Shown here piece by piece: positions 32,396-64,000 of a stretch of 64,000 bases of DNA. This stretch comes from Enterovibrio sp. JCM 19048 (GTDB taxonomy: Bacteria; Pseudomonadota; Gammaproteobacteria; Enterobacterales; Vibrionaceae). The stretch lies in assembly GCA_001310415.1 (NCBI GenBank), contig BAXE01000004.1:1-64000 (forward strand). The letters run 5' to 3'. Both the position numbers and the translations under genes were made by a program. The notes beneath the pieces were generated by a model. The model ran no database searches. It was not told the origin of the DNA and saw nothing but the letters and a program-made list of their open reading frames with translations. Position 1 is the stretch's first letter, and each line of letters begins with the position of its first letter.

Positions 32396-35300
32396 ATGTT
32401 GTCTTTTCTGTTCTCTTTGCTTGCACAATTTAGAGCCTGCTTTTACCTGGTGATGGTATTTTTTGCCACCACAACATTCGCATCCCCTCTTTTTTATACC
32501 TTCCCCTATTCAAGCGCCAACGCAACCGGGAAGTTTAAAGACATTGAGTATGTCGAAAATAAGGGTGTTTGGTTATTGGATAGTGATGGCAAAGTCAGCT
32601 ATTACGACGGTATCCATTACCACAACATGAATGCATTCACTAAGTCTGGCGTTACCCCTGTCATGCAGATTGCCTCATTCCAATCTTCGTTCTGGCAGCT
32701 CACAGACGGTCAATTGCAAAGCTACTCAAACGATAGTAACCAGTTTAAAACGGTACCGTTACCAGGGGCTGCGGTGGATCTGGCACATGATAACCACTCG
32801 CTTTATGTCACAACGGCGAATGCGACTTTCCGTATATCAGCAGAAACCCTAAGTGCAGAAAAAGTCAGTGAGAAAGCCTATGAGCGCCTTTTCAATGGCT
32901 ATGATTCTGTGCTCGGCTCTACGATGGCAAATTGTTCTCATTAAATAATGGCCAGGATATCCTCATGCTTGGTACGTTGGATGTGACGATTGCCCGCGCC
33001 TATGGCGATACCATCTGGGTTGGTTCAACCAACGGACTGGCACGCTATGACGACGGGATTTTGGTCGCTACCTATCTGCCAACCTTGCCGGTGTTCGATA
33101 TTGAAGTGAACCAGGAAGGGGTTTGGGCTGCCACCTCCGCGGGATTGTATTTGGGGAAAGCCCACAGTGGGCAGACCGGGGACTTCATGCCAATCGACGG
33201 TAAATTTGATGACCGTTTCAGCTTCTCAGGAAGGTATGTTTCCGATATCGAACTGAGTGACAAGGGAGAGCTTTGGATTGCTACCGAATCGGGGCTGAAT
33301 TTCCGGCCTCCAATGGCTCAGGACATTCTCCGCTTCCCTCTCTATGCTTTGTCACCAAACAGGAACGATGAAGAGTTTTCTGCGTTGGTTCCCTGGCGTG
33401 ATAAATACCTTGTTGCTGCGCGTTACAAGCTGGTGACACTGAATAGCGATTTGAGCCCTTTGCAATCGGTAAAACTCGATGTAGAGGTGGAAAGTATGGC
33501 GGTGCTGAATGACATCCTTTGGATTGGGTCAGCATCAGGCTGAGGGGATATAATCCGCAAACACTCCAGCCCATTGACCGGATACTACCCGTTAAGTTAA
33601 AGCGGTTGGCGGTCGACGCAATCATCAGTGACAGCCATTCGCTTTGGATCTCGTCAGGAGCTAACCTTTACCGGTTTTGGCCAAGTACGGAAACAGTCAT
33701 TGATTTTGGCAATGACTGGGCTGGAAGCATTGATACCAGTCTGACGTCCGTTGTTGATATGGATGAAAAAGGCACATGGCTCGGTACCACAAACGGTCTC
33801 TATCTCTACTTCGATGGACGCTTTGTCCCCACGCTTAGTCGCGAAGATGTAGGCAGGGTCAACTCTTTACACGTCATCAATGCAAGTACGCTCTGGTTAG
33901 CGACGAGCAAGGGGATCTTTAAATATGGTGGTGCCGGGGAAATGAGCTCTGCTTTTCATTTTTCGGGCAGAACTGAAGAAGTTGTGACATGTCTTACTGC
34001 GTCAAATGCTCAGGTGTTTGCGATTACCAATATGGGGACTTATGCCGTCGGAACTGAAACAGAAGCGCTAAGTTTTGCCCCACAAATCAAACACCGCAAT
34101 CACCTTTCGTCGCGCCACTATGCCTGCACAACCGACAACAACCGAATGATTATGGCTGGGGACGAAGGCGTGTTTTCTATACCGCTGCCGGTGTTAGAGA
34201 TAATGATGTCGGGAGAACGGCACAATCCTACCACCGGAGCTATTCATCTCAATGGACATCCCTGGCGGTTCAATATTTCTCCTACTGAGCCGCTTGAGGT
34301 GCCCAATGGTGCATCCCTGATGGTTGAGGTTGGACAATTGCCTTTCAATCAATTCAGTGAGGTTGTCTATCGCCTTGAAGGCGAAAGTCACAGCGAATGG
34401 TATGCCACCAAAGACCACCGGCTGGTTTTCAGTGCGCTTGAGTCCGGGGACTATACCCTGTTGATTAAACTCAAAGAAGGAGCCAAAGAAACGGCTGAAT
34501 TCCAACTGATGCGTATCCAGGTCAAGTCTTCATGGTATGAGCGGGTAGGCGTCATGGTGGCATTGTTGTTGCTCTTTGCGTTGATGCTAATCGCTTCTTA
34601 CCGCCGTAAACACGCGGCTGTTCGTGAACAAAACCGGCAGTTGAGAAGCACGGTTCACCGCAAAGTCGCGGTAATAGACAAGCAGCAATCAGATGTATGC
34701 CGCAGCAATGTTCTGGTGCAAACCCAACAGTTCATAGAGTGCTTTGACGCTGAAGTTGAATATGACGAATCCACACCGGATAAAGCGGCGGTGGCCGGTG
34801 TCCAGACGCAAAAAGACAGCGAAACCTGGGCAAGGAGCGTGCTGAGTGAGATTCAGTATAACTTCCATGATCCTGACTATTCGCTGGCCATATTGGCCAA
34901 AACGCTTTACTCGTCAGAGCGGAGTCTACAGCGTCGTTTCCGTCAGGAGTTTAATGCCACCTTTAAAGACCTGCTTATTGCCACGCGTTTGGAAAATGCC
35001 AAACGTATGCTGTGTCAGGGGGATAAAATAACCGATGTTGCCGTGTCTTGCGGTTTCAACGAACCGTCGTACTTTACCAAGTCTTTTAAAGCAAGATTTG
35101 GCGTAACGCCGTCGCAGTTTAGGGATGGGTGTGAAGCCTTGGAAGAGAAAAAAAGAGCGTGGTATAGTCGCCAGACCATACCACGGGCGTCAAAGACACC
35201 TTCGCTTGCTGCCGGAGGTGTGTGGGTGACCACACACCGTCTGGAATTCGTTTCAATTAACGTGGATTCATTAAACCGATTTTCGCTTCCTGAGCGATAG
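32396..35300 (+). CDS. Membrane-bound AraC-family regulator with periplasmic propeller and Y_Y_Y domain (two frameshifts)
   Basis: About 968 residues after repair. An N-terminal hydrophobic signal is followed by a long series of WxxT/S-type propeller repeats (VGSTNGLARYDDG, WAATSAGLYLG, WIATESGLNF, WLGTTNGLYLYFDG, WLATSKGIFKYG), an immunoglobulin-like Y_Y_Y domain (VYRLEGESHSEWYATKDHRLVFSAL region), one membrane helix (VGVMVALLLLFALMLIA), a basic linker, and a C-terminal AraC domain (LAILAKTLYSSERSLQRRF; VAVSCGFNEPSYFTKSFK). There is no kinase or receiver domain, so periplasmic sensing appears to be linked directly to DNA binding. Breaks near 32916 and 33538 each need one base. The last ~55 residues look non-native; the true stop may be near 35165. 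The ligand is unknown; it lies between znuA and feoA. Confidence 0.8.
35217..35238 (+). repeat. Perfect hairpin with GTGA tetraloop at the 3' end of the AraC gene
   Basis: GGTGTGTGG-GTGA-CCACACACC: nine base pairs and a GNRA-type loop. A second inverted repeat TGGTAT...ATACCA flanks 35160-35183, and ACACC at 35196 could pair alternatively with GGTGT. No T tract follows. The location suggests a 3' untranslated structure, if the coding frame really ends near 35165. Confidence 0.5.
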
Positions 35301-58333: not shown

Positions 58334-60097
58334 TTAAAGTCTCGAAGCCAGAGGAATAATGGTTACCCGGTCGCCGGTTTCAGCGTTTTCCACTTCCGGT
58401 GATACTTCAATCAGGCAATTGGCTTCATACATGGAGCGTAAAATGCCTGAACCTGAGAGCCTGTGGAGCGCACTTCCAGTTGACCATTTGCCCCGATGGA
58501 ATAAATCCCACGGGTATATTCAGTTCGGCCTAGACGGGAGCGTATTTTTCCTGTGTGATGGCTGAAATACGCTGCGGTTGCCAGAACCTGTCACCTTGCA
58601 TTTTCCGGATAGCCGGTTCCACAAATTGCAGAAATGTCACCATTACCGCTACCGGATTTCCCGGCAACCCAAAGAAGGGGGTGTCGCCTAATTTACCAAA
58701 TGCCAAAGGCCTGCCTGGCGCATATTCACGCGCCAGAAGTTAATGTCACCAAGGTTAGCCAAAACCGTTTTAATGTAATCAGCATCGCCCACGGAAACAC
58801 CACCGGAAGACATCACCATATCGGCATTTTCCATGGCGTTGGTCAGGGTGTCCGTCAGCGACTGCTCGCTGTCCTCGATAATACCGAGATCCAAAACTTC
58901 ACAGCCAAGTTGTTCTAATAAGCTACGAAGCGTAAAGCGGTTGGCATCGTAGATGCAGTTTTCTTTTGCTTCAGTCCCCGGTGCCTGCACTTCGTCACCG
59001 GTTGAAAACAGCGCCACTTTGATGGGTTTGAAGCAACACGCTTTGTCCATGCCAAGGGACGCCATCATGCCGACAGAGGCAGCGTTCATGCGACTGCCTG
59101 CAGCAAAGACAGTCGCGCCGTATTTCAGATCTTCACCTGCCTGACGCACATTCTGACCCGCGCGCACTGCCCCTTTGCTGGTATCGAAGCGGACGAGATC
59201 ACCGTCCACGGTCGCCTGTTCACGCATAATGACGGTATCAGCGTCCTGCGGCACTGGCGCACCGGTCATGATGCGAACGCATTCCCCTTGGTTCAGTGTT
59301 TCACTGTAATGGTGTCCCGCGAAAACTTCACCGACAATCCGGTAATGGTCGCGGCCAATGTCATCGCTGCGGATAGCGTATCCGTCCATGGCCGAATTGG
59401 TACTTGAAGGCACATTGACCGGCGCTACCACGTCTTCAGCCAATACCTGTCCGTGCAATGTCTCGAGTGGCAACCACGCTTTCGCGGTGGGTTCATTCAG
59501 GGCTGTCAGGATTTTTTCCCGGCCAGCATCGACGGAAAGCATTGTTGGAGAAAGGGAATCGCAGGTGGCTGTCTGGGCTTTGTGGCCTTCCATCCAGCGC
59601 AGGATGAAATCACGGATAGCAGTAATGTTGTTGATATCAAGCCGTGGCAGGGCGGTATCAGGCTGTGAGTCACAGGCGACGGCAACGATGTTGCTGTCGT
59701 CCGGGAACAACCAAGGCTTACCCAGCGTTTCGCGGTGCAGTTCGATTTTCGGGAAGCGCTCGTGTTTAAAGCCTTCTACCAAGACCAAGTCCGCACGGGT
59801 CTGGTCGAGACGGGTAAGCAATTGGTTCAGGCTGTATTCGCCATCAGCTGTTTCGTTCATCAGAGCGTGACGGCGACGGGAGCTGATAAGCATCTGCTCC
59901 GCACCGGCTTTCCGCAGCCTGAAGCTGTCTTTGCCCGGCTGGTCGACATCAAAGTCGTGGTGGGCATGTTTGACCATGGCAATACGGATGCCTGATTCGA
60001 CGAGCAGGGGAATCAGCTGTTCAAGCAAGGTTGTTTTTCCAGTGCCACTGAATGCGGCAAAACCTAAAACCGGCAGTGAGCAGTTGGAAAAACTCAT
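58334..60097 (-). CDS. MobB-MoeA fusion protein (three frameshifts)
   Basis: 588 residues after repair. Residues 1-170 are MobB, the GTPase adaptor of molybdenum cofactor guanylation (P-loop FAAFSGTGKTTLLE; VEGFKHERFPKIE). From about 190 on it is MoeA, which inserts molybdate into molybdopterin (NSAMDGYAIRSDD, PVPQDADTVIM, STGDEVQ, SSGGVSVGDADY, GLPGNPVAV). Breaks near 58712 (NMR should continue PGRPLAFGKLG), near 58555 (EKIRSRLGRTEYTRG; an A lost) and near 58455 (SQGSGILRSMYEAN; a G lost). The true end is TAA at 58334. ATGA overlap with mobA. Confidence 0.92.
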
Positions 60098-60675
60098 GAA
60101 AGTGCTCCGTACTTTTGCAATTCATCAGGCGTATTGAGGTTCACGAATGCATCGTGCTCTTCACTGAAATCGACAAACACGGTATTGCAGATGTCGTATA
60201 GCAGCACGATTTTGCGATCGCCGTTATTGAGGAAATTCTCCAGGCGCTCAAACACATCGCGTTTATACATAGTGACAACCGGCTGAACAGATTCACCGTC
60301 GTGGGCGACCACGATTTCTGTCCCGGCATCGATTGCGGCGTACATTTTTTCCAGCAGGTTGTGTGGGAGGTTAGGGCAGTCGCAGGGGACGAAGCCATAC
60401 CATTCGGCGTTCAGTTGCGCCATGGCGGCGTGAATACCACCCAGCGGGCCTGGGAAGTTCGATGACGTCACCAAAAACCTGGCCGTATTTCCCATAAGTA
60501 TCCTGGTTACGGTTGGCATTCACAGCCACCGTTGCGCCTTGCTCATGCAGGCGGTGGTAGACGTAATCAATCAGCGGCTTGTCATTGAGCTGACCAGCCC
60601 CTTGTCCTGGCCACCCATGCGCCTGGCCTGGCCGCCGGCAAGAATGACCCACAAAGTATCAGGAAGCGAATGCAT
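60094..60675 (-). CDS. mobA: Molybdenum cofactor guanylyltransferase MobA (two frameshifts)
   Basis: Joins GMP to molybdopterin. Starts MHSLPDTLWVILAGGQARRMGGQDKGL at 60675, with the LAGG and RMGGxDKG nucleotide loops. Breaks near 60597 (GLV should continue QLNDKPLIDYVYHRL) and near 60460 (shift before FPGPLGGIHAAMAQ). CDCPNLPHNLLEKMY and TPDELQKYG follow. About 193 residues. Overlaps the ATPase gene by 17 nt. Confidence 0.93.
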
Positions 60676-61360
60676 GGTTGTCCTTGTCGATAATATTGAG
60701 TTTAGGTTTGTGGATGAGCCGCTGGTTTTCAATCAGCCACTCTTGATTACAACAGGCCGTCAGCTTGTTGGGGTGGTGGCTGGTGATCACTAGGCTTGCG
60801 CCTCGCTCCAGCAGATCTTCCACCATGATTTTTTGTGCGTCGATGGCATCGGGATCAAGGTTAGCGCAGGACTCATCCATCAGCAGGATAGAGGGATTCA
60901 GCGCCCATGCCCTTGCCATGGCTACCTTCTGTTTTTCACCGCCTGAAAGCAGTGAAACATGTTCCCGGCTTAAGCTTTCCAGCCCTATTTTGCGCAGCGC
61001 CTGCATTGTAATCTGGCGACAGGATTTTTGACAAAAATGCTTTCGCTTCAGCCCATACGCTACGTTTTCCGCCACGGTACCGTCAAACAGGTAGGGAGCC
61101 TGATGCATGTAAATGACACCGCTTTGGCCAGAAAAGCCAGCAAGGCGCTGAAGTAGCGAGGGGTGTTTAAGGTTTAATGTGCCGTGGGTCGGCTTTTGGA
61201 TGCCTGCCAGCACTTTCAGCAGTGTGGTTTTCCCGATGCCGTTTTGCCCAGTCAGGTAAATGGCGTCACCCGGATTGATCTTCAGCGAGGGAATATGGAA
61301 CAGCAGCCGCTGCTTGTACTTCACGGAGAGATCGATAGCTTCCAACGTAACCTGACTCAT
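60659..61360 (-). CDS. tupC: Tungstate/molybdate-type ABC transporter ATPase
   Basis: 233 residues from ATG 61360 (MSQVTLEAIDLSVKYKQRLL). Walker A GQNGIGKTT, signature LLSGGEKQKVAMARAW, Walker B ILLMDESCANLD, H-loop TSHHPNK. Intact. The neighbouring permease and binding protein are of the Tup type, so this is probably TupC; specificity between tungstate and molybdate cannot be read from the ATPase. Confidence 0.88.
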   Translation of the reverse strand: MSQVTLEAIDLSVKYKQRLLFHIPSLKINPGDAIYLTGQNGIGKTTLLKVLAGIQKPTHGTLNLKHPSLLQRLAGFSGQSGVIYMHQAPYLFDGTVAENVAYGLKRKHFCQKSCRQITMQALRKIGLESLSREHVSLLSGGEKQKVAMARAWALNPSILLMDESCANLDPDAIDAQKIMVEDLLERGASLVITSHHPNKLTACCNQEWLIENQRLIHKPKLNIIDKDNHAFAS

Positions 61361-61368
61361 AGCTGTCC

Positions 61369-62069
61369 CTAGCTCGTTCGTAAATGGCCGTTGCCACGGG
61401 CAAAACTGATAAAGAAATTCATGGTCAGTGCCAGAACCAGCAATACCATGCCGAGCGCGACGCCTTGGGCGAACGCACCTTTGGATGTTTCGAGTGCAAT
61501 TGCGGTGGGGATGTTCCGGGTGTAATTCAGGATGTTGCCTCCCACCATCATAGAGCAGCCCACCTCGGTGATAATCCGGCTGAATGCAGTGATCACCGCG
61601 GCCAGCAATGGGAAACGGATTTCCCACATTAAGGTCAGCATCGCGCGGGGCATGGATGCCCCCAGTGTATAGGCGGTTTCCCATGCGCGGCGGTCACTGT
61701 TTTGAAACGCGGCGTGCATCATGGAAACCAGAATAGGCATGGCAATCAGCACTTGCCCCAGAATCATCGCTTTTTGGGTAAACAGCATTTTCCAGTCCCC
61801 GAGAGGCCTGCACGTGACAGCATCATGTAAAGCAGCAAGCCGATCACCACGGTCGGTACGGATTGCAGGGTATTGATGATGGAGAGCACGAACCACTTTC
61901 CCGGCACCTGCCAGTAAGCCAGTGCAAAGCTGAGCAACAGGGCTGGCAGGATCACCAGCCCAATGGCAAAAAGAGACACTGAAAACGACACACCGACGAT
62001 CCCCCAGAGCGTGACATCAGCGCTCAACAGAAGGGATACGGCTTGTCGGGTTGTTTCCAGTATTTCCAT
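61369..62069 (-). CDS. tupB: Tungstate-type ABC transporter permease (one frameshift)
   Basis: About 233 residues, five to six membrane helices. MEILETTRQAVSLLLSADVTLWG at 62069; LQSVPTVVIGLLLYMMLSRAG should continue PLGDWKMLFTQKAMILGQ but breaks near 61803 (CCC to CC). The permease loop ETAYTLGASMPRAMLTLMWEIRFPLLAAV is the EAA-type contact with the ATPase. Its start overlaps the tupA stop (TAATG). Confidence 0.9.
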
Positions 62070-62874
62070 TAGCCTGCATCCGCCACAAACAGTTGCTGAC
62101 CATTCACTTTGAAGTCGTTGATCATCGCTTGTGCTTTCGGACTGACCAGCCAGTCACTGAACAGTTTCGCACCTTGGTAGTTGGCATCCGGGTAGCGGGT
62201 TGGGTTTACCAAAATAACTTGGTAAGGGTTAAACAGACGCTTGTCACCTTCAACCAGCACATCCAGATCCAGCTTGCTTGCATACGCCAGCCAGGTGCCG
62301 CGGTCAGTCAGGGTGTAGCCTTGCAGCTCGTTTGCCATGGTCAGAGTTGGTCCCATGCCTTGGCCTACTGCTTTATAAGCTGCAAATTCCGGTGACATAC
62401 CAGCCGCTTTCCACAGCAGCAGCTCTTTCTTGTGAGTGCCAGAATCGTCACCACGGGAAACAAAATCCGCATTGGCTTTGGCAATGTTTGCCAGTGCTGT
62501 CGCTACATCTTTGCTGCCTTTAACGTTGGCTGGGTCAGCAACCGGGCCAACCAGCACGAAATCGTTGTACATCAGTCCGCGGGGCAATACGCCAAAGCCT
62601 TTTTCAACAAACGCTGCTTCCGCGTTTGGCGCGTGGGTCATGACCAAATCTACATCTCCGTTCTCACCCATCTTCAGGCTTTACCAGTACCAGCAGCCAG
62701 GATTTGGATATCGTATCCGGACTCTTTTTTAAATTCGGGAACCAGATAATCCAGTAACCCGGAGTGATAGGTGCTGGTGGTGGTCGCGAGGCGAACAATG
62801 TCTGCGGCGGTGACGGAGAAGGACGCAAATAGAGAGAGAAGGGCAAAGGTAGTGATGTTTTTTATAATACGCAT
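62069..62874 (-). CDS. tupA: Tungstate-binding periplasmic protein (one frameshift)
   Basis: Binding protein, 268 residues after repair. Signal peptide MRIIKNITTFALLSLFASFSVTAAD, then RLATTTSTYHSGLLDYLVPEF with the TTTS oxyanion-binding pattern of TupA, and FVSRGDDSGTHKKE. The frame breaks near 62683 (GKA should continue LKMGENGDVDLVMTHAP; CCC to CC). TupA proteins prefer tungstate; the neighbouring Mo-cofactor genes leave molybdate open. First gene of tupABC-mobA-mobB/moeA. Confidence 0.92.
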
Positions 62875-62949
62875 GTTGTCTTCCTGACGTTGAAATAACT
62901 GACTAAGTCGCACACCACAAACCACAGGGTGGGCTGAATTGTGGACAAA

Positions 62950-62964
62950 GCAACAAAAATGCCA
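62950..62964 (-). promoter_or_regulatory. Sigma-54 (-24/-12) promoter upstream of tupA
   Basis: On the minus strand TGGCATTTTTGTTGC, continuing with T, fits the TGGCAC-N5-TTGC consensus with one mismatch and the required ten bases between GG and GC. It points toward tupA, with transcription expected to begin near 62938, about 64 nt before the ATG. An NtrC-type activator gene lies divergently 200 nt away. Confidence 0.65.
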
Positions 62965-63161
62965 AAATTTCAATCAGATATAGGCTTAAATTAAGAGGTT
63001 GAATATTAACGCTTTTCTGTATCAAATATTGTGCGTTTGACCAATTTTTTATGCATGCTCACAGTTCATGAGGGTTGGACTGAGTCAAAATGTCCCATGT
63101 ATGATGAAACAAATTGATCTCTCGGGATTTAACCGCTCAGATTTTATAGGCTTTTGACTGT

Positions 63162-64000
63162 ATGAAGGATGCATTGCAGCAATTTGGTTTTTCCGCACTG
63201 GTGGTTGATGACGAACCGGGCATGCGGGCAATCCTCAATAAAGCGTTATCGAAAAAACTAACCCAGGTGGAAACCGCCTCTTCGCTGGAAGAAGCGGAAG
63301 CGCTGCGCCAGCGGAACCATTTCGATTTACTGATAGTGGACATCAACCTTCCGGGCCGATCGGGCATTGATTGGCACGAAGCCTTTACGGATGATGAGCG
63401 CCGCAGCGATATTATCTTTATGACGGGTTACGCCGAGCTGGAAACAGCCATTAAAGCGCTGCGTGCGGGTGCATCAGACTTCATTCTCAAGCCTTTTAAC
63501 CTCGAACAAATGCTGCAGTCGGTTCAGCGCTGTCTGGATAAACGTATGATGGAGCGACGAAATGTCGCCCTGCAACGTGATGTCGCGCGCTCTTTTCCGG
63601 TTGATATTATCGGTGAAGCACCCAAAACCCAGGCGATGCGTGAGATGGTATCCCGCCTGGCACCGTCACCTGCAGCAGTGTTGATTGAAGGGGAGTCCGG
63701 CACCGGCAAAGAGCTGGTTGCCCGTGCCCTTCATTCGCTAAGTGGCCGCACCGGGCCTTTTGTCCCGCTTAACTGTGGCGCGATTGCACCTGAGCTTCTG
63801 GAAAGCGAGCTGTTTGGCCACGTTTCCGGCGCTTTTACCGGCGCGCGTAAAAACAAAGACGGCCTGTTCCGTGTCGCCGACAAAGGCACCCTGTTTTTGG
63901 ACGAAATTGGCGAGATGCCGTTGTCGATGCAGGCATCACTCTTCGAACCCTGGAGCAAAAAACCATCCGTCCGGTAGGGGCAGAGCGGGAAGTCAGTGTG
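63162..64000 (+). CDS. Sigma-54-dependent response regulator, NtrC family (partial, one frameshift)
   Basis: The receiver domain ([14 protein letters not shown], phosphoacceptor Asp in [13 protein letters not shown] near residue 60, Lys in FILKPFN) is followed by an AAA+ domain with Walker [16 protein letters not shown] sigma-54 contact loop ([10 protein letters not shown]) and Walker [10 protein letters not shown]. The frame breaks near 63941 ([20 protein letters not shown]; a C lost). The gene runs off the window, so the DNA-binding domain and any kinase partner are not visible. Divergent from tupABC, which has a sigma-54 promoter. Confidence 0.93.

Follow-up and report, generated by a model that had tools for sequence, protein, structure and literature searches.

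The window analysed here is a 64,000-nucleotide stretch of Enterovibrio sp. JCM 19048, positions 1–64000 of contig C4 (C4:1-64000) in a 5.27-Mb draft assembly that is 87.5% complete. Near its right-hand end a tup-mob operon on the minus strand faces a divergent regulator gene, and a kinase gene follows just past the edge. Coordinates are those of the contig.

58340–60097, minus strand: mobB/moeA fusion gene, its 3′ part frameshifted and its 3′ end approximate
60094–60675, minus strand: mobA, frameshifted in the assembly, start read by eye
60659–61360, minus strand: tupC, ATPase
61369–62069, minus strand: tupB, permease, frameshifted in the assembly
62069–62874, minus strand: tupA, periplasmic tungstate-binding protein with a TTTS motif, split near 62672 as assembled
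62936–62940, minus strand: predicted tupA transcription start at about 62938, placed from spacing alone, 12 nt 3′ of the −12 GC
62950–62964, minus strand: sigma-54 −24/−12 element TGGCATTTTTGTTGC, an exact TGGCAYN5TTGC oriented toward tupA
62965–63080, strandless: DNA between the activator site and −24, a stretch enriched family-wide for IHF-like sequences
63081–63097, strandless: palindromic upstream activator site TGAGTCAAAATGTCCCA, consensus TGNGACA-N3-TGTCNCA, predicted from recurrence and a genome-wide pattern search
63162–64000, plus strand: NtrC-type response regulator gene, divergent from tupA; receiver and Sigma54_activat AAA+ domain with GAFTGA, Fis-type HTH past 64000
64556–66592 of contig C4, directly after the regulator: sCache_3_3 histidine kinase of 678 residues

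The gene names of the operon were compared with family models and structures through its relatives. In relative L119, the mobB/moeA product reaches 972 bits with the NCBIfam MobB/MoeA fusion model, above its cut-off of 532, and the TupA of the same relative matches NCBIfam TupA as its sole family, but with 231 bits against a cut-off of 400. For the TupA of relative L115, the best PDB sequence match is 3muq (E 3.4e-111), a protein named TupA in the available text of PMC5517513. Tungstate, not molybdate, is probably the cargo that matters.

Apparent frameshifts lie at approximately 56930, 58688, 60519, 61790–61900, 62672 and 63940. Relatives keep open frames for tupA and the regulator, which makes assembly error the likely cause, and the draft is probably rich in indels. 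The rpoN gene of the genome was found on contig C9 with one internal stop, in line with other genes of the assembly. A plasmid-collection search with window positions 62000–64000 matched 148 records, none over 80% of the query, and the best 5 of the 148 were sigma-54 regulators or unannotated.

The original prediction placed TGGCAT-N5-TTGC, with GG-N10-GC spacing, on the minus strand at 62950–62964 and pointing at tupA, and re-reading of the sequence agrees. TGGCATTTTTGTTGC contains the GG-N10-GC core of a sigma-54 promoter within TGGCAY and TTGC, and it points at tupA, whose ATG is at 62874. Exact TGGCAYN5TTGC occurs twice in the 64-kb window when both strands are read, the second time at 34558 on the plus strand.

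Comparison with relatives, which the prediction had named as its check, revealed pronounced conservation of this element. TGGCAYN5TTGC faces tupA in 59 of the 60 regions between tupA and the regulator that were compared first, those of the window and of 59 relatives (the incomplete locus L096 was set aside), and, after 45 further loci were added, in 101 of 105, compared with 20 matches in 21,000 shuffled regions. The N5 spacers of the 101 element-bearing regions take 44 distinct forms, and the opposite strand carries the pattern in none of the 105. Some genomes occur in both sets and the sequences are related, so that the regions are not independent trials. The 45-locus set spans Vibrionaceae, Moritella, Shewanella, Ferrimonas, Neptuniibacter and Neptunomonas, with kinase identity down to 43%; it comes from 52 loci (L115–L166) taken out of 80 matches, among which seven loci with no TupA match (L156, L158–L162 and L165) went uncounted. 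The exact element is absent from four of the 105 regions: L077, from Vibrio-genus genome G148; L155 and L157, from Halomonas and Modicisalibacter; and L163, from Motiliproteus. Near-matches are present in L155, L157 and L163. L077 retains the −24 half, TGGCATTGTCC, and its palindrome, and the TTGC half is gone.

A chance match, with tupA driven by a sigma-70 promoter, could draw on the abundance of degenerate matches: with up to two mismatches allowed, the window holds 166, about as many as its shuffles (mean 158). Recurrence of the exact element at the same place throughout the family, with so many different spacers and never on the opposite strand, speaks against this, and we consider the chance reading largely ruled out by conservation, with next to no probability left to it. 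The sequence pattern thus argues, almost to the point of certainty, for a sigma-54 promoter at tupA.

The divergent gene had been described as encoding an NtrC-type response regulator with an intact GAFTGA loop. Domains and motif agree with this: the protein has a receiver domain, an AAA+ domain with GAFTGA and a Fis-type HTH, although as assembled it is frameshifted near 63940 and resumes in another frame beyond 64000, leaving two pieces. Among 52 related regulators, GAFTGA was found in 41, GSFTGA in seven and no match in four. The sensor kinase that had been guessed to lie past the window was found beside the regulator. The genes after 64000, which the original prediction had proposed to read, comprise the kinase, an HTH + PBP_like regulator, fdhD, a DUF3305/DUF3306-like pair and the formate dehydrogenase (FDH) operon, in that order. 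The conserved element, the regulator domains and the kinase next door make a two-component sigma-54 circuit facing tupABC-mobA-mobB/moeA well supported, and the adjacent regulator is very likely the activator of the tupA promoter.

The palindrome likely marks the site at which this activator would bind. In the window, 116 bp separate it from the −24 element, and 133 bp lie between the start of the site and the −24 T on the tupA strand; family-wide, the latter distance ranges from 74 to 196 bp. Allowing at most one mismatch to the 12 fixed bases, the palindrome is present in 82 of 105 regions and in 2 of 2,100 shuffles; with at most two mismatches the counts are 100 of 105 and 19 of 2,100. Because the motif was derived from these same regions, genome-wide searches weigh more. 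In the 5.27-Mb draft the strict palindrome has just two occurrences, 63081–63097 and 69581–69597, and the latter precedes the FDH operon, 6.5 kb from the tup site. A loose search of the same genome (at most two mismatches) gave 27 forward matches and 30 for a reversed control, showing no excess over that control; exact matches alone were therefore used.

Genome-wide searches of two genera placed almost all palindromes in the same system. A related strict pattern found 19 sites in 11 of 18 Enterovibrio-genus genomes, with one control match, and by their coordinates 18 of the 19 fall inside the tup/FDH locus. The sole site elsewhere is G026:C3:121418-121434. Across 41 Vibrio-genus genomes, 37 palindromes were found in 28 genomes, with no control match. 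Loci were fetched for 28 of these 37 sites, and each of the 28 belongs to the system, with 20 preceding the gene for the FDH iron-sulfur protein, seven between tupA and the regulator and one between a related regulator and mobA. For this last site, in locus L241 of genome G159, the 3-kb locus contains no tup match.

The DNA between palindrome and promoter may contribute to activation as well. Of 58 loci, 26 have an IHF-like pattern in this stretch in its relaxed form (2.6 expected) and seven in its strict form (1.2 expected), an enrichment that is suggestive given that the sequences are related. Helical phasing of the site-to-promoter distances gave a best period of about 11 bp (p 0.0066 after a scan of periods); the test comprised 25 distinct distances from related sequences, and we place no weight on it.

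The FDH operon comprises genes for an iron-sulfur protein, a TorD-like chaperone, the catalytic subunit and an iron-sulfur subunit. In all 11 genus loci, a promoter-like TGGTTC-N5-TTGC with GG-N10-GC spacing lies exactly 68 nt past the palindrome. A candidate sigma-54 element was also found in 18 of 19 loci from named genomes whose DNA extends to the FDH gene, and in 13 of those 18 a palindrome was found as well, with the element 85–87 or 97 bp from the start of the site; L136 has palindrome sites and no candidate FDH-side element. These FDH-side elements score just 12 to 13.5 of 15, with one at 15. In the spacer between fdhD and DUF3305, a GG-N10-GC element points toward DUF3305 in 20 of 20 loci and toward fdhD in 19 of 20, the fdhD-facing element being absent in L152 and without its leading T in L151, L153, L154 and L164. 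A palindrome with at most two mismatches sits between the two elements in six of the 20 (L143, L145, L151, L153, L154 and L164). As best-scoring sites per region, the fdhD/DUF3305 elements carry less weight than the exact element at tup. The names DUF3305 and DUF3306 come from Pfam matches in relative L131, not in the window genome.

The palindrome before the FDH operon, together with the elements at FDH, fdhD and DUF3305/DUF3306, points to an FDH regulon that includes oxyanion uptake. Two-component sigma-54 control of tupABC-mobA-mobB/moeA, as originally proposed, stands, but that scope was too narrow, since FDH, fdhD and DUF3305/DUF3306 have elements too. Control of tup is very probably shared with FDH.

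Co-occurrence across 150 family genomes is in keeping with this association: 113 have the kinase, 118 have TupA and 116 have the iron-sulfur protein of FDH, and among the 113 kinase genomes TupA was present in all and the FDH protein in 112. The exception, G086, has a locus that runs into a contig edge. Genomes G011, G030, G121 and G127 have TupA and FDH with no kinase, and fdhD adjoins tupA in the stretches fetched from them; these stretches hold no palindrome with up to one mismatch, and their three sigma-54-like sites scoring at least 13 of 15 are all intragenic. With the cut-off lowered to 12, 20 sites appear across the 23 kb of these four loci, a few of them outside matched genes; L253 has a complete core between tupA and tupB, and L251 and L252 each have an incomplete core, GG-N10-TC, right before the FDH gene. 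These kinase-less loci thus serve as a clean control where the palindrome and strong elements are concerned, and as a less clean one for weak elements.

Two further situations were encountered. In L254 and L255 (G041 and G067, members of the same genus group), the kinase has no recognisable sensor half and the tup element is absent, and the FDH-, fdhD- and DUF3305-side elements are kept. L256 (G022) has a good sigma-54 element at tupA (3964, minus strand); the 9 kb fetched there holds neither the regulator–kinase pair nor FDH, and no kinase or FDH marker was found in the G022 genome. That L256 keeps its tupA element in these circumstances indicates that the coupling is not strict.

Published data on the V. 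parahaemolyticus orthologues bear directly on these promoters. As given in the part of PMC9817140 available to us, deletion of rpoN yields log2 fold changes of −1.45 for VP1501, −1.84 for VP1508 and −3.17 to −4.75 for VP1510–VP1515, and −24/−12 sites are predicted at VP1501, VP1508 and VP1510, with V. cholerae ChIP-seq support as cited there; VP1510–VP1515 are the FDH operon and VP1501 is listed as hypothetical. VP1501 is TupA in the accessible text of PMC5517513, and in that of PMC10469919 VP1502/VP1503 are an NtrC-type sigma-54 regulator and a kinase, for which the Vibrio survey gives no tested target and a predicted link to an ABC transporter only. The site at VP1508 is one base away from the L131 element, which makes VP1508 a probable DUF3305 gene. 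RpoN dependence of both the tup and the FDH orthologues in V. parahaemolyticus is accordingly already on record, as far as these sources extend.

According to the same text (PMC9817140), no shift of the VP1510 promoter was obtained with purified RpoN, and indirect control was an alternative that the authors weighed; both points count against a simple direct reading. The activator, the enhancer site, the signal of the kinase and the link to tungstate uptake are not named in the portion of PMC9817140 that we used. A separate observation is an AphA ChIP peak in the V. cholerae VC1522/VC1523 spacer, a hint of quorum-sensing input in the available text of PMC6855506. In literature on tungstate, FDH, RpoN, Vibrio and tupABC, searched mostly outside subscription journals, we recognised no description of the circuit among the papers listed. 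Dong and Mekalanos reportedly described the RpoN regulon of V. cholerae in 2012.

The original prediction left the signal of the circuit unknown; the kinase next door now supplies a candidate, formate, through its sensor domain, remote fold matches and cited receptors. The sensor matches Pfam sCache_3_3 (E 9.3e-29; 100.3 bits, cut-off 28.8), as do six of six related kinases. A structural model was built with 30 sequences for the sensor of relative L115, whose kinase is 82% identical (mean pLDDT 88). Foldseek with this model ranked the MkcA receptor first and 8py0/8py1, chemoreceptor domains solved with formate bound, at ranks 2–4, 6 and 7; the resemblance to the latter is remote, with E of about 2e-6 to 5e-6, 17–20% identity and TM-scores of about 0.25 by query and 0.5–0.6 by target. 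A profile search with the sensor returned LuxQ (E 0.0015), 8py1 (E 0.0059), DcuS (E 0.0073) and 8py0 (E 0.035). Conserved Arg and Tyr columns of the kinase family align with 8py1 and 8py0. In the accessible text of PMC12415202, an sCache_3_3 receptor domain, for which formate-binding residues are reported, has formate as its assigned ligand, and only one kinase domain is given a ligand, which is indole. Related Cache_3-Cache_2 receptors bind or respond to formate, as far as PMC12501870 was available, and the formate receptor in the available part of PMC8698456 is placed in sCache_3_2, so that more than one class can bind formate. Taken together, this evidence slightly favours formate as the signal that the kinase would sense.

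The same circuit could instead respond to another small carboxylate or fermentation product, such as lactate, pyruvate or oxalate, with FDH and metal uptake forming part of a wider anaerobic response. The alphaproteobacterium Kiloniella (L165, 6345–8081 on the minus strand, and upstream) has a related pair facing an MFS carrier, with a palindrome at one mismatch and TGGCACAACACTTGC. This carrier and that of Marinobacterium L161 reach 312 and 330 bits against the SfMCT model (cut-off 320), and a Kiloniella pair facing a lactate or oxalate/formate-type carrier makes another small carboxylate possible. Both pairs adjoin carriers of the L-lactate or oxalate–formate kind, a gene that looks similar on inspection by eye is close to the pair in Methylophaga L156, and sCache families bind several small acids in the available texts of PMC8698456 and PMC12415202; the remoteness of the sensor's similarity to formate receptors also leaves room for a different ligand. 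Set against these points, the palindromes examined precede FDH, tup/regulator or regulator/mobA (one of 19 Enterovibrio-genus sites lies elsewhere), 8py0/8py1, which contain formate, are among the best fold matches, and the domain class is the one assigned to formate in the accessible part of PMC12415202. Another carboxylate is accordingly the less favoured choice, though a serious one among the minority readings.

Explanations that put metal status first are less probable still. The kinase might sense a shortage of periplasmic tungstate or molybdate, directly or via TupA, and switch FDH as the main consumer. The divergent neighbour of the pair is tupA in every kinase locus with a TupA match, and no ModE passes its cut-off in the genus, both of which would suit such a sensor; however, sensing of scarcity should not also raise a metal-consuming enzyme, the sensor is a Cache domain of the organic-acid class, and the locus has a separate candidate oxyanion sensor, which together render this improbable. 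That candidate is the HTH_17 + PBP_like gene (L009, 10608–11505 on the minus strand), which sits beside fdhD and which we take to resemble the tungstoenzyme regulators of the TaoR type; the copy in the window genome matches PF12727, and that of L119 matches HTH_17 and PF12727. Its domains make it a plausible oxyanion sensor, and it might even be the main governor of tup, with the sigma-54 element minor or vestigial. The adjacency to fdhD, the existence of a known family of W/Mo regulators, and the element kept by L256 with no pair would agree with such control. Conservation of the element across orders and the drop of VP1501 in the rpoN deletion strain (PMC9817140, as far as available) oppose it, as does the lack of a match to the gene in many element-bearing loci, though locus DNA often ends before FDH there; we give this explanation even less credit than metal shortage.

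Metal-status control may nonetheless coexist with substrate control. The original prediction had the circuit acting in place of ModE-type repression. ModE passes the TIGR00637 cut-off in none of the 18 Enterovibrio-genus genomes, with weak sub-cut-off matches in eight, and ModA passes its cut-off in 17 of the 18. The absence of ModE at that threshold sides with the prediction, but the HTH_17 + PBP_like candidate sensor in the locus makes replacement of ModE a tentative reading.

Collectively, the reading that we prefer is a formate-responsive two-component sigma-54 circuit that, in many marine bacteria, couples FDH to oxyanion uptake and cofactor maturation, to which we assign a probability of roughly two in three. 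An inner-membrane histidine kinase would sense formate through its periplasmic sCache_3_3 domain and, judging from the pairing of the genes, would phosphorylate the adjacent NtrC-type regulator. The regulator would then bind the TGNGACA-N3-TGTCNCA palindromes seen at the locus, where IHF bending probably helps it to activate sigma-54 polymerase. The promoters so activated would be those of tupABC-mobA-mobB/moeA, the FDH operon, fdhD and DUF3305/DUF3306, at all of which the elements are conserved. FDH would thus be made, when its substrate is present, together with the genes for oxyanion uptake and bis-MGD maturation.

We rate at about even odds the fuller proposal that a periplasmic formate-sensing kinase gates metal acquisition, so that the substrate of FDH would induce, via sigma-54, both the enzyme itself and the import of tungstate and maturation of bis-MGD. 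If this is true, metal uptake is set by substrate demand and not by metal status alone; to our knowledge, the timing of tungstate import has been explained mostly by metal-sensing regulators. The pathway would also be old: Vibrio, Neptunomonas and the groups between them share one tup element, and Kiloniella has a related pair accompanied by a similar palindrome and a sigma-54 element. The locus predicts a regulon with an activator, a DNA site and a candidate ligand, giving pairs of the VP1502/VP1503 type a role and proposing the missing activator for the RpoN-dependent FDH of the Vibrio transcriptome, as described in the available text of PMC9817140.

Among known systems, regulators of the TaoR/TupR type have a possible counterpart in the locus gene with HTH_17 and PBP_like domains, which is separate from the two-component pair. 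Rajeev and colleagues are said to have described such tungstoenzyme regulators in 2019, and these are not known to be sigma-54 activators. ModE controls molybdate/oxyanion uptake genes; the tup system would likewise set oxyanion uptake, by sigma-54 activation instead of repression. The formate chemoreceptors with sCache_3_3 or Cache_3-Cache_2 domains (8py0, 8py1, PacF and McpF) have the same class of sensor domain and, remotely, the same fold, but they are chemotaxis receptors, whereas the Enterovibrio sensor drives a histidine kinase and its ligand is putative. The FhlA/formate hydrogenlyase regulon of E. coli is alike in the sigma-54 activation of formate-oxidising enzymes by formate, as far as the accessible part of PMC11291172 describes it. 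However, the formate-binding part of E. coli FhlA is the N-terminal domain of the regulator itself, and the N-terminus of the window regulator is a receiver domain, which sets it apart from the FhlA type. Unlike FhlA, the Enterovibrio system would have a membrane Cache kinase signal to a receiver-domain regulator, and it would include metal uptake.
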